DNA of 64,000 bases from assembly GCF_900129905.1 (NCBI RefSeq), contig NZ_FQXG01000006.1, forward strand, positions 330,580-394,579, written 5' to 3'. The notes beneath the pieces are model-generated. The model was given only the letters and a program-made list of their open reading frames with translations, searched no databases and was not told where the DNA came from. Source of the stretch: Ferrimonas marina. Its GTDB lineage: Bacteria; Pseudomonadota; Gammaproteobacteria; Enterobacterales; Shewanellaceae. The position numbers were made by a program, and so were the translations under genes. This document shows, one piece after another, positions 8,106-48,654 of the stretch; position 1 is the stretch's first letter; the number at the start of each line of letters is the position of its first letter.

Positions 8106-8783
8106 ATGGCCGGTGGCATCAACAAAGTGATCCTGGTTGGCAACCTGGGGCAAGACCCGGAAGTGCGTTACATGCCGAACGGCAACGCCGTAGCCAACAT
8201 TACCGTAGCAACCTCTGAATCCTGGAAAGACCAGCAGGGTCAGCGTCAGGAGCGGACCGAGTGGCACCGCGTGGTGCTGTTCCGTCGCCTGGGTGAGATC
8301 GCCGGCGAGTACCTGAAGAAGGGCTCCAAGGTCTACATCGAAGGCAAGCTGCAGACCCGTAAGTGGCAGGATCAGAACGGTCAGGACAAGTACACCACCG
8401 AGATCGTTGCCAACGAGATGCAGATGCTGGACTCCCGCGGCAGCGGCCAGGGTGGCGGCAACTTCGGTGGCGGCCAGCAGGGCGGCGGCAACTTCGGTGG
8501 CGGCCAGCAGGGCGGCGGCAACTTTGGTGGCGGCCAGCAGGGCGGCGGTAACTTCGGTGGCGGCCAGCAGGGCGGCAACTTCGGTGGCGGCCAGCAGGGC
8601 GGCAGCAACTTCGGTGGCGGTCAGCAGCAGGGCGGCAGCTTCGGTGGCGGTCAGCAGCAAAGCGGCCAGCAGGCCTCTCGTCCGGCCCCGGCGGCCAAGC
8701 CGGCCCAAGGTCAGCAGAACCAGCAGAACCAGAACTTCACTCCGGACCTGGACGAGGGCTGGGACGACGATATCCCGTTCTGA
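8106..8783 (+). CDS. ssb: Single-stranded DNA-binding protein
   Basis: SSB coats single-stranded DNA in replication, repair and recombination and recruits partners through its C-terminal tip. Residues 1-112 form the OB fold ([38 protein letters not shown]). Residues about 115-185 are a low-complexity linker with seven FGGGQQ repeats. The last residues [10 protein letters not shown] are the conserved acidic partner-binding tail. At 225 residues it is longer than the roughly 178 of E. coli because of the repeat linker. Start 8106 is chosen because GGAGA lies 6 nt upstream; the upstream TTG at 8094 overlaps that site. A strong terminator follows directly. Confidence 0.97.
8451..8660 (+). repeat. 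Tandem 27-33-nt repeats encoding the SSB Gly/Gln linker
   Basis: About seven consecutive units with the core GGTGGCGGCCAGCAGGGC, nearly identical in DNA for the first five, encode NFGGGQQG(G). Exact 30-nt units occur at 8461-8490 and 8491-8520. Near-identity at the nucleotide level suggests recent expansion by slippage or recombination, so copy number may vary between strains. Confidence 0.9.
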
Positions 8784-45911: not shown

Positions 45912-46580
45912 ATGGCATCACTGTCGCCCGTTGGACTGGGCTATCTCACCGCGCTGCTGCCGCTGGCGACCACCCATCTCTGCTATGGCCTGAGTCGCTG
46001 GCAGGGCCATGTTCCCCCCTGTAACCCCTACTGGCGCGATTGTGTCAGCATCAGTGCCACCGGTCGCGAAGGGGTGGCCTACTTCCTGTTCAAGGGGGGG
46101 ATCCTCCCCACCTGCGTGCTGCTGGCCCTGTTCTGGGCCCTGAGCCTGGCCTGGGTACGGCAGCTGGGCGAACCCCGTCGTGCTGCCTGGTTGGGTGTTG
46201 CCCTGCTGGGCTCGCTGGCATTGGCCGCGTATGCCCTAGCACTGGGCCACAACACCGGTTACCTGCCGGTCATTCGCCGGGTCGGGGTGGCCCTGTTTAT
46301 CTTTTGCACCTTTTCCTTGCAGGTGATCATTGCCGATGCGCTCTATCGTCTGCCAAGCTGGCACAAGATGGGTCTACGCCTGTTGTGGTTCAGCGTGCTT
46401 ATCCTGGCGATCGCCCTGTCGACGCTGGCACTGGATCTCTGGCTTGGGCTCGGTTATCAACGATTGGAGAACGCCTTTGAGTGGTGGCTGTTCCTGCTGC
46501 TGAACCTGCATCTGCTGACCATGGCGGACTGCTGGCGGCGGGGCGGGCTGCAACTTGGGGTAAGGATCAAGGAGGAGTGA
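45912..46580 (+). CDS. Hypothetical polytopic membrane protein (Frag1/DRAM-like layout)
   Basis: A 222-residue inner-membrane protein with six hydrophobic segments (about 8-25, 58-80, 90-110, 120-145, 155-178, 190-210). The loop after the first segment (PPCNPYWRDCVSISATGREG) and the late FEWWLFLLLNL recall Frag1/DRAM/Sfk1 proteins, but I cannot confirm membership. GAGGGAGG lies 6 nt before the ATG. It overlaps the DM13-domain gene by one base (TGATG), so the two are translationally coupled and may act together. Confidence 0.7.
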   Translation: MASLSPVGLGYLTALLPLATTHLCYGLSRWQGHVPPCNPYWRDCVSISATGREGVAYFLFKGGILPTCVLLALFWALSLAWVRQLGEPRRAAWLGVALLGSLALAAYALALGHNTGYLPVIRRVGVALFIFCTFSLQVIIADALYRLPSWHKMGLRLLWFSVLILAIALSTLALDLWLGLGYQRLENAFEWWLFLLLNLHLLTMADCWRRGGLQLGVRIKEE

Positions 46581-47059
46581 TGAATCGATTGGTACTGCTG
46601 TTCAGCCACCTGGCCGCGCTGCTGCTGGGGGTGGCTTTGGGGATCTACTTCCTGCCGATCTGGACCGCCGAGGCGCCTCCGCCGGCCACACAACTCAGTG
46701 AGCTGGCCCAGCAGGCCCAATATCAAGGTGAATTCAGCCGCGAGCGCCAGGACAGTGATGCCCTGCATTGGGGCGAAGGGGTATTGTCGATCCGCGATGG
46801 GGTGGTGGGATTCCAGGGCCAGTTGGCACCGGGACCGGCCTATCGTCTGTACCTGTCGCCCAACTTCATCGAGACCGAATCTGCCTTTCTGGCCCAGCGC
46901 GAACAGATGGTGGCCGTTGGAGAGATCCGCTCCTTCGAGGGCTTTATGCTGACCCTGCCCGATGGGGTGGACCCTGCCGCTTACACCACGGCAGTGATCT
47001 GGTGCGAGGCCTTCGACCAGTTCATCAGCTCCGCTTCATACCAGTCCGGTCCGGGTTAG
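46580..47059 (+). CDS. DM13-domain membrane-anchored protein
   Basis: A 159-residue bitopic protein: membrane anchor (LVLLFSHLAALLLGVALGIYF), a short linker and a DM13-type domain (about 45-155: GVLSIRDGVVGFQGQLAPGPAYRLYL...AVIWCEAFDQFISSASY). The single conserved Cys in VIWC with the following FxxF is the mark of DM13 domains, proposed to handle electrons or haem-like groups. ATG 46580 has AAGGAGGAG directly upstream and shares a base with the preceding stop. It is followed by a truncated haemoglobin gene 49 nt downstream. Confidence 0.8.
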   Translation: MNRLVLLFSHLAALLLGVALGIYFLPIWTAEAPPPATQLSELAQQAQYQGEFSRERQDSDALHWGEGVLSIRDGVVGFQGQLAPGPAYRLYLSPNFIETESAFLAQREQMVAVGEIRSFEGFMLTLPDGVDPAAYTTAVIWCEAFDQFISSASYQSGPG

Positions 47060-47108
47060 TCGATTTGGTCTATGCTCCGGGGTTGCGCAAGCCAACGGAG
47101 AGACAACC

Positions 47109-47465
47109 ATGACATCCCTATATGAGCGCCTGGGAGGCAGCGACGGGATCACCCGTATCGCCTCGGACTTGGTGGATATCCATCTGAATAACCCCAGAAT
47201 CTCATCCCGCTACGTGGATTCTGACGTGGCTGCCCTGAAACACGGTGCCGCCACCTTCTTCATTGCCGGCACCGGTGGACCGGCGGTGTACGGCGGTAAG
47301 GACATGCGCACCACCCACCGTGGCATGAACATCGACGCGGAGGAGTTTATGGCGGTGCTGGACGATGCCCTGCAGGCCTTGCAGAAGAACGAGGTCGGCC
47401 AGCGCGAGCAGGAGGAGGTGCTGTTCGTGCTCTACAGCATGCGTGGCGAGATCATGCGGTTGTAG
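47109..47465 (+). CDS. Truncated haemoglobin, group I
   Basis: A 118-residue trHbN-type globin. It opens with SLYERLGGSDGITRIASDLV (helix A/B), has the FIAGTGGPAVYGGKDM turn before helix E-F, and the proximal His in THRGMNIDAEEF (about residue 75). Family members bind O2 or NO and often detoxify NO. GGAGAGACAACC precedes the ATG. It lies downstream of the DM13 gene and may share its transcript. It ends just before a CTAG-rich heptamer repeat array. Confidence 0.93.
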   Translation: MTSLYERLGGSDGITRIASDLVDIHLNNPRISSRYVDSDVAALKHGAATFFIAGTGGPAVYGGKDMRTTHRGMNIDAEEFMAVLDDALQALQKNEVGQREQEEVLFVLYSMRGEIMRL

Positions 47466-47470
47466 GCTTG

Positions 47471-47519
47471 CTAGGAGCTAGGAGCTAGGAGCTAGGAGCT
47501 AGGAGCTAGGAGCTAGGTG
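47471..47519. repeat. Tandem heptamer array (CTAGGAG) x7
   Basis: Seven head-to-tail units of CTAGGAG, the last being CTAGGTG, fill the gap between the convergent haemoglobin and npr genes. Because the unit is 7 nt, TAG falls in all three frames; the reverse complement also carries CTAG. CTAG is generally a rare tetramer in gammaproteobacterial genomes, which makes seven in 49 nt remarkable. Confidence 0.97.
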
Positions 47520-47533
47520 CTGGGGGCGTCGGG

Positions 47534-47812
47534 CTATTCGGCTTCGTCGAAGCGGGCGGCAAACAGGTTGCACACCGCCTCCATGGCGTCGTCGGCATCG
47601 GGGCCCTGGCACCGCACCGTCACGGTTTTGCCCTGGCTGCCCTGCAGCAGCAGGATCCCCAGCACGCTGTCGGCTTCGGCCTGTTGCTCACCCTGGCTCA
47701 GGCAGATCTGGGCATCAAAGCCGGCGGCCAATTGCACCAATCGGGTTGCAGCCCGGGCGTGCAGCCCGAGCTTGTTGATCACCTCAACGTCCCGCTCGAT
47801 CCACTCACTCAT
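47534..47812 (-). CDS. npr: Nitrogen-PTS phosphocarrier NPr
   Basis: The 92-residue HPr-like carrier of the nitrogen-related phosphotransferase system. The phosphorylated His is H18 in NKLGLHARAATRLV, and the second phosphate-handling helix follows ADSVLGILLLQGSQGKTV. It passes phosphate from PtsP to PtsN. Its ATG overlaps the rapZ stop (ATGA). It is the last gene of the lpt-rpoN run. Confidence 0.95.
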   Translation of the reverse strand: MSEWIERDVEVINKLGLHARAATRLVQLAAGFDAQICLSQGEQQAEADSVLGILLLQGSQGKTVTVRCQGPDADDAMEAVCNLFAARFDEAE

Positions 47813-48654
47813 TCGCTCAGTTCGCGGTGTCTAACCTGAACACTGTCCCGGTGGGCACGGAAGCGTTGCGCCAGGGCATCGGCAACGTAAACGCTGCGGT
47901 GCTTGCCACCGGTGCAGCCGATGGCCACCGTCAGGTAGGCGCGGTTGTTGCGCTCCAGCATCGGTAGCCAGTTGAGCAGGAAGCGCTCGGTGTGGTCGAT
48001 AAAGCGTGCCACGCTGCCGTGCTGCTGGAAGAACTGGGCCACCGGCTTATCCAACCCGGTCAGGGGGCGAAGCTCCGCTTCCCAGTGAGGGTTGGGCAGG
48101 AAGCGCACGTCAAACAGGTAATCGGCCTGTTTAGGCATGCCGTGCTTGAAGCCGAAGGACTCAAACACCAGCATCATCTCGCTCTCAACCTGGCCAAGCA
48201 GGCGGGTTCGTAACTCGTCCGCCAGTTGGTAGACCGAGAGATTATCGGTGAGGATGTGGTGGTCGCACTCCTGCGCCAGCGGAGCCAGCAATCGGCGCTC
48301 CTGGGCGATGGCATCCGCCAGGGACAGTCCATCGCGGGACAGGGGGTGCATCCTTCGGGTCTCGCTGTAGCGCTTGAGCAGGTGCTCATCGCCAGCGTCC
48401 AGGAAGAACACCTGCAGATCGATGTCGGGATCCAGCCGCTTCTTCAGCCGGGGGATGTCGAGCTGCTCCAACGGCAGGTTACGGATATCCAGGCTGACGG
48501 CGATGTCGCTGCGCTGGCTGACTTTGCTGCGCAGCAGTTGCGGCAGCAGTTCCAGCGGCAGGTTATCGACGCAGTAATAGCCCAGGTCTTCCATGACCCG
48601 CAGGGCGACGGTCTTACCCGCCCCGGAGCGACCAGATAGGATGATCAGCTTCAC
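47809..48654 (-). CDS. rapZ: RNase adapter protein RapZ
   Basis: A 281-residue RapZ (YvcJ) family protein; in E. coli it binds the sRNA GlmZ and hands it to RNase E, controlling GlmS. Walker A is SGRSGAGKT at about 7-15; the C-terminal part has GCTGGKHRSVYVAD and DSVQVRHREL. The GTG start (48654) overlaps the ptsN stop by four bases (GTGA); the frame extends upstream to 48711 without homology. E. coli RapZ has 284 residues. Confidence 0.95.
   Translation of the reverse strand: MKLIILSGRSGAGKTVALRVMEDLGYYCVDNLPLELLPQLLRSKVSQRSDIAVSLDIRNLPLEQLDIPRLKKRLDPDIDLQVFFLDAGDEHLLKRYSETRRMHPLSRDGLSLADAIAQERRLLAPLAQECDHHILTDNLSVYQLADELRTRLLGQVESEMMLVFESFGFKHGMPKQADYLFDVRFLPNPHWEAELRPLTGLDKPVAQFFQQHGSVARFIDHTERFLLNWLPMLERNNRAYLTVAIGCTGGKHRSVYVADALAQRFRAHRDSVQVRHRELSE

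Follow-up and report, generated by a model that had tools for sequence, protein, structure and literature searches.

REP/BIME elements have a palindromic unit and are associated with RAYT transposases, and the heptanucleotide repeats of Calothrix carry the name STRR. A bacterial excess of heptamers, and the idea that slippage produces it, are already in print, and the heptameric long simple sequence repeats of prokaryotes treated by Mrazek et al. 2007 are known here by way of the same two papers (PMC4692102; PMC4679880; here and below, both are cited for the parts available). The first describes the GGGNATC and GGGGA(C/T)T repeats of Xanthomonas and Nostoc, which are dispersed over the genome within 50 bp after stops, with the G-rich strand in sense orientation; the G-runs of three to four bases of the GGGNATC type lead to quadruplexes, and four units are preferred. 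The second describes the TAACTGA direct repeats of marine Beggiatoaceae, in which one heptamer is used genome-wide, mostly just upstream of start codons, with a patchy distribution over distant phyla. What bacterial heptamer repeats do, and why they have seven bases, is left unsettled in the available parts of both papers.

The array analysed here, from a window of 64,000 nucleotides (the whole stretch of DNA under analysis) of Ferrimonas marina, is a locus of this known class, the heptameric simple repeats found between bacterial genes, as described in the accessible text of these papers (PMC4692102; PMC4679880), because of its unit length, the number of loci and their place: 7-bp units are arranged head to tail beyond chance, and many unlinked intergenic loci carry them. 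Shared with the heptameric prokaryote repeats are the tandem 7-bp unit, the non-coding location, the sporadic occurrence among relatives and the proposed slippage origin, whereas the unit CTAGGNN and the strand and edge polarity measured here set these arrays apart from the repeats described in the parts available.

Like the GGGNATC type, the arrays are dispersed over the genome with the G-rich strand in sense, and the window array lies where that type lies, 5 nt past the globin stop. In contrast to that type, each CTAGGAG unit has GG only and thus lacks runs of at least three G, which CTAGGGG arrays elsewhere in the genome would contain; the arrays, collected with a filter of at least four units, have 5 to 38 units instead of preferring four; and convergent gaps are strongly enriched (PMC4692102). 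The use of one heptamer genome-wide and the patchy spread over distant phyla are shared with the TAACTGA repeats, but the arrays here lie mostly past stops, and the window array, between two stop codons, is away from the slot upstream of start codons (PMC4679880). The Calothrix repeats, cited in PMC4692102, are likewise tandem heptamers, from another lineage. Unlike REP/BIME elements, the heptamer arrays are not palindromic, and the congener G009 has arrays yet lacks a Y1 transposase match; the hairpin modules of a composite element treated below look REP-like. Literature searches, with most subscription papers outside their reach, found no CTAGGNN family named in titles or abstracts, and the two papers matched by tandem strings of the unit have abstracts on other subjects. 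New here are this family, the other heptamer (TTGGCAG) right behind the npr stop of a congener, and the polarity of edges and strand.

The window array and the CTRGGNN family of the genome

The original prediction, made from the sequence of the window, described seven CTAGGAG-like units in a short convergent gap between a truncated haemoglobin gene and npr. Direct reading, Tandem Repeats Finder and shuffles bear out the array, and domain matches bear out the gap, most of which is taken up by the array (Table 1). The CTAGGAG units occupy 47471-47512 and the CTAGGTG unit 47513-47519 by direct reading, and Tandem Repeats Finder reported a period of 7 at 47470-47521 with 7.4 copies, 97% match and a score of 97. 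A two-unit 14-mer allowed up to two mismatches had six matches in the window, every one inside the array, compared with a mean of 0.31 and a maximum of 2 in 100 shuffles, and the perfect period-7 run at the array is 48 nt long, the runner-up in the window being 15 nt. The window array is beyond chance and is a locus of a genome-wide family.

Table 1. Genes and repeat features at the array locus, in window positions.
Feature	Position	Strand	Basis or remark
DM13 electron-transfer domain gene (PF10517)	46580..47059	+	
Truncated haemoglobin gene, Bac_globin (PF01152)	47109..47465	+	stop codon ends 5 nt before array
Full convergent gap, stop codon to stop codon, 68 nt	47466..47533	unstranded	
Heptamer array, 6 x CTAGGAG + CTAGGTG	47471..47519	+	direct reading of sequence, tandem repeat scan
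Decayed eighth unit, CTGGGGG	47520..47526	+	direct reading of sequence
npr gene, HPr-like phosphocarrier, PTS-HPr (PF00381)	47534..47812	-	stop codon 47534-47536, 7 nt past decayed eighth unit

The rarity of CTAG and the stops that the array was said to place in all plus-strand frames, with CTAG on both strands, also held. There are 27 CTAG in the 64 kb, seven of them in the array, against 59.8 expected from trinucleotides. As CTAG is its own reverse complement, TAG occurs at the array in all six frames, and these six-frame stops would be a mere by-product of CTAG. A scan of 46900-47900 found no promoter-like or terminator-like sites. The folding energy was -12.0 kcal/mol for the antisense strand compared with -24.7 kcal/mol for the G-rich sense strand, but neither was better than shuffles (z 1.1 and 1.2), and a hairpin in the array was therefore rejected. 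Elsewhere in the window, a 30-bp tandem repeat in roughly seven copies, Gly-rich in one frame, was seen by eye at 8448-8658.

The same heptamer, which the original prediction proposed looking for elsewhere in the genome, is present as at least two perfect CTAGGAG units at 11 places on seven contigs. The pattern of four consecutive CTRGGNN units had 348 overlapping matches and its reversed pattern none. In all, 33 arrays of at least four units were collected, including the window array, which is therefore part of a genome-wide family; one locus (L196) was left out of this set because it duplicates the contig end in L195. These two loci (C5:142225-142334 and C14:192-301) apparently represent one CTAGGGG array closing one contig and opening another, so the repeats may have broken the assembly. 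Some of the long arrays include unread bases (N), and the unit counts given for these are minimum values. Over 43 runs of at least four units, all four bases (T, A, G and C) occurred at position 6, and G was the usual base at position 7; the other five positions are fixed or limited by the search pattern itself, so that conservation of CTAGG cannot be derived from it. Adjoining units were identical in 299 of 398 cases and units of different arrays in 28%, and because adjoining units are so much more alike, the arrays appear to have been homogenised one by one. In 200 kb of the genome, perfect runs of at least three units occurred at two places for period 7 (the source of all 12 period-7 runs), at two for period 5 and at none for the other periods from 4 to 15, so that this sample does not demonstrate an excess of period 7.

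The place of the arrays was assessed with gene calls made here by codon score, without database support. The calls placed all 33 arrays outside genes, and a start codon lay within 25 nt of only one (L188, 17 nt). Twenty were in convergent gaps, six in codirectional gaps with the G-rich strand in sense, five in codirectional gaps with it in antisense and one in a divergent gap, and one lacked a neighbour on one side. Gaps without arrays served as controls if they spanned 60 nt or more and contained a G-skewed 28-nt window; those of this genome came from 264 kb (the window and 200 kb of contig C6), and only stops were counted in them. Convergent gaps made up 20 of the 32 cases with both neighbours, compared with 12 of 91 control gaps (Fisher p = 2.3e-7). 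Frequent identical arrays at random sites had been named as a finding that would reduce the locus to a common simple repeat: frequent the arrays are, with 33 collected, but random they are not. Convergent gaps are over-represented among their sites, and many arrays start at a gene end.

The edges of the arrays are polar. A sense stop codon lay within 25 nt of the G-rich strand's 5' edge in 16 of 33 arrays, and seven more had an intrinsic terminator there, whereas the 3' edge had a stop codon in one of 33 and a terminator in two. Counting either signal within about 30 nt, 20 arrays had one at the 5' edge only, none at the 3' edge only, three at both and ten at neither. With stops alone, the one-sided cases divided 15 to 0 in favour of the 5' edge; in the control gaps, the windows with the strongest G skew gave 6 vs 14 (p = 1.8e-5 for the comparison), and the polarity in this genome is therefore not made by base skew. 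Within the limits of these gene calls the edge polarity in this genome is firm. The abutted gene has the G-rich strand as its sense strand; for the window array this gene is the haemoglobin gene. A test on the distance to the nearer neighbour, dropping arrays without both neighbours, gave 22 vs 6 (p = 0.0037), and 14 of 28 arrays were on the G-rich strand of their locus.

Arrays in relatives and in distant genomes

The gene order around the window array is the sole case of its kind among the 14 genus genomes in which the npr locus was read: the haemoglobin gene intervenes between DM13 and npr (window 46580-47812). No such gene separates DM13 from the npr it faces in the congeners G001, G009 and G010; in G004, haemoglobin gene and npr are 1.2 kb apart. 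Among 30 npr-like loci of about 3.3 kb each, a perfect period-7 run of at least 2.4 units was present in this genome and G009 only. In G009 the gap between npr and the DM13 gene contains a TTGGCAG array of 11.1 units (L152 / L249), which begins 5 nt past the npr stop with its G-rich strand in sense for npr. That genome has 28 overlapping matches to three TTGGCAG units at four places, and an AGTTGTC array besides; five of its arrays gave 2 one-sided cases at the 5' edge vs 0, and by eye the G009 arrays L248 and L250 seem to stand behind stops left unassigned by the caller.

Three consecutive CTAGGAG units were absent from the other 59 genomes searched. Four consecutive CTRGGNN units were present in 14 of 77 genomes, comprising this one, one of 13 congeners (G006, unit CTGGGCT), nine genomes from a second genus in the family and three other genomes. 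Six arrays from two genomes of that second genus (G068 and G063) were without polarity (1 vs 1). Over 299 genomes of the phylum, four CTAGGNN units were found in nine, including this one, and the reversed pattern in two; this genome alone had 299 matches and the next genome 15.

Beyond the phylum, three CTAGGAG units were present in at least 116 stretches, many from metagenome assemblies, with labels among the matches listed that include Acidobacteria, Planctomycetes, Verrucomicrobia, Bacteroidetes, Chloroflexi and others. Three IMG/VR stretches also carry three CTAGGAG units; viral spread was considered and set aside. The foreign loci (L031-L146), chosen by the presence of three CTAGGAG units and thus giving no rate over genomes in general, come from at least 82 genomes according to a grouping made here; several come from one genome, and a count with one vote per genome was made as well. 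Foreign arrays in which G equalled C were omitted from every test. Among the matches listed, period-7 places away from CTAGGAG numbered 29, and periods 4, 5, 6, 8, 12, 14 and 15 numbered 12, 3, 10, 5, 2, 7 and 1, in loci that were selected for holding heptamers.

Polarity in these loci had the same sign as in this genome. Among the matches listed, the one-sided cases at the 5' and 3' edge were 42 vs 7 of 152 arrays for all heptamers, 31 vs 7 of 118 for CTAGGAG and 12 vs 0 of 50 for other heptamers, and 28 vs 7 of 82 genomes with one vote each. With stops alone, however, the ratio of 39:9 in the listed loci was not clearly above the 18:10 of G-skewed control gaps from those same loci (p = 0.11), and 69 of 110 foreign arrays among the matches listed lay on the G-rich strand of their locus. 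Since arrays follow the G-rich strand of the locus and the control comparison gives p = 0.11, a general polarity is a candidate claim only. Among the matches listed, the nearer-neighbour distance test gave 66 vs 44 for foreign arrays (p = 0.045) and a non-significant 45 vs 36 for CTAGGAG arrays alone. An excess of convergent gaps was not clear in the listed foreign loci, with 20 of 106 arrays with both neighbours compared with 26 of 177 control gaps.

CTAGGAG arrays at corresponding places of four Pseudoalteromonas loci (L055, L086, L127 and L130), which align at 77-84% identity, consist of 12.3, 7.1, 8.6 and 7.3 units respectively, and 10.7 units are present in each of L047 and L143 (83% identity). 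The alignments of the Pseudoalteromonas loci suggest that the places of arrays persist while unit numbers drift, and much the same is described for two xanthomonads in the available text of PMC4692102. At a matching locus of Shewanella benthica (L126 and L059), one strain has 9.9 perfect CTAGGAG units and the other a longer array in which CTAGGAG and CTAGGAAA units are mixed.

Origin of the arrays and competing explanations

The favoured reading, to which a probability of about 0.6 is given, is that slippage builds and homogenises arrays in the free space after gene ends. What is observed is the family, the unit length, the homogeneity within arrays and the place outside genes, mostly at 3' ends. 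Replication slippage or unequal exchange would add, remove and homogenise units, and arrays would survive where coding and promoter sequence is spared, that is, in the gaps behind stop codons and terminators. The strand polarity may derive from a transcription-linked asymmetry, possibly the exposure of a G-rich non-template strand past the last ribosome. This process requires no special function of the array. The slippage-prone locus that was among the original suggestions is supported indirectly by the likeness of units within arrays and by the variation in unit number at the matching Pseudoalteromonas loci. Slippage alone explains neither the polarity nor the use of one unit at some thirty unlinked loci while a congener uses another. 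Polar growth or decay of the arrays was considered and dropped, as a sign test that omitted arrays too close to the end of a locus gave 14 vs 11 in this genome (p = 0.69) and 63 vs 54 in the listed foreign loci (p = 0.46); six of seven CTAGGAG-type arrays here give the impression of units that decay in the 3' direction.

A functional explanation, unlikely although parts of the placement data favour it, is that the array acts as a putative shield of the 3' end of the abutted gene from opposing antisense transcription. The opposing transcript would read the C-rich strand, whose CTCCTAG repeats are C-rich, G-poor and little structured and could load Rho, or else the opposing RNA polymerase might stall on a G-rich template. 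The convergent excess in this genome is consistent with such a barrier, as are the many arrays that abut the gene to be shielded, the lack of a terminator-like site in the scan of the window gap, the weaker folding of the antisense strand and the position of GGGNATC-type repeats on the same side and strand (PMC4692102). Seven arrays, however, are already behind an intrinsic terminator, the listed foreign arrays have no clear convergent excess, the folding of both strands is within the range of shuffles, and the available text of PMC4692102 identifies no role in gene regulation for its repeats. Extended to bacterial heptamer arrays in general, the idea that they serve as polar boundaries where transcription units end is doubtful. 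Under such a rule the G-rich strand would be in sense, with its 5' edge directly at a stop codon or terminator, and each lineage would have its own 7-letter unit (CTAGGAG here, TTGGCAG by npr in the congener) in a constant slot; with the unit exchangeable while the slot stays, the rule would therefore lie in period, strand bias and place, not in sequence.

That the array is a leftover or an end part of a dispersed modular element, with solo arrays left after loss of the body, is improbable. A composite intergenic element does exist outside the window, in 11 alignable copies (L187-L194, L202, L206 and L207), with CTAGGTG or CTAGGGG heptamers and repeated, CTAG-bounded hairpins. In these 11 of the 33 arrays the heptamers run into a common body of about 45 bp (AGGCTAGCC ... 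GTCAACGCTTTTCCT), behind which follow 11-mers AGGCTCTTCCT and then hairpin modules CTAGAAGGGCNNNGCCCGCCCTAG. The common 3' flanks score up to 40, compared with at most 13 for shuffles, and by eye CTAG stands at most joints of heptamers, 11-mers and hairpin modules, both in favour of such an element. The window array itself lacks the shared body in the flank comparison: its flanks match no other array, the best scores of 11 and 10 being below the shuffled tops of 14 and 13. The exact core pattern has eight matches here and none in 76 relatives, while CTAGGAG arrays are present in many other genomes, and this genome has no RVT_1 match, though it has two neighbouring Y1 transposase matches.

A protein-binding array, also among the original suggestions, here taken as putative sites of a CTAGG-recognising protein or RNA regulator, is very unlikely. 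Variation at positions 6 and 7 would fit such sites, with the reservation that the remaining five were constrained beforehand by the search pattern, which thus does not establish conservation of CTAGG, and the nine of 299 phylum genomes with the pattern, this one included, compared with two for its reverse, would fit them as well. Against them speak the AGTTGNC unit that G009 uses instead, the single array near a start codon and the wide range of unit numbers.

Vsr repair acts at CTWGG. The Vsr domain (PF03852) was found in seven of 77 genomes and not in this one; six matches were over the cut-off and the seventh, in G028, was weak, in a genome with arrays. Because genomes without arrays are mostly without Vsr too, Vsr explains nothing. 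Reverse transcriptase (PF00078) was found in four of 21 genomes, which include neither this genome nor G009, and Y1 transposase in ten of 21, with the two neighbouring matches in this genome and none in array-bearing G009. None of the three tracks the arrays in the genomes searched. No Rfam family reached its gathering score in six array loci of this genome other than the window array.

A phase-variable switch or one-off rearrangement scar is scarcely credible: tandem repeats of variable number and a haemoglobin gene between DM13 and npr in this genome only, among the 14 of the genus read, would suit them, but no array was called in a gene and only one is near a start codon, the window array lies between two stops with no promoter-like site in 46900-47900, on which grounds a contingency locus was rejected, and the scar of the original prediction, although the haemoglobin gene does separate DM13 from npr here, is unlikely because arrays at some thirty other places speak against a single event.

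For annotation, the array is accordingly an unlikely switch for either neighbouring gene, haemoglobin or npr. A rule of place and strand that is independent of the unit is strong in this genome and is reported for the Xanthomonas and Nostoc repeats in the available parts of PMC4692102; if true, it would narrow the explanations of such arrays to transcription or its ends.
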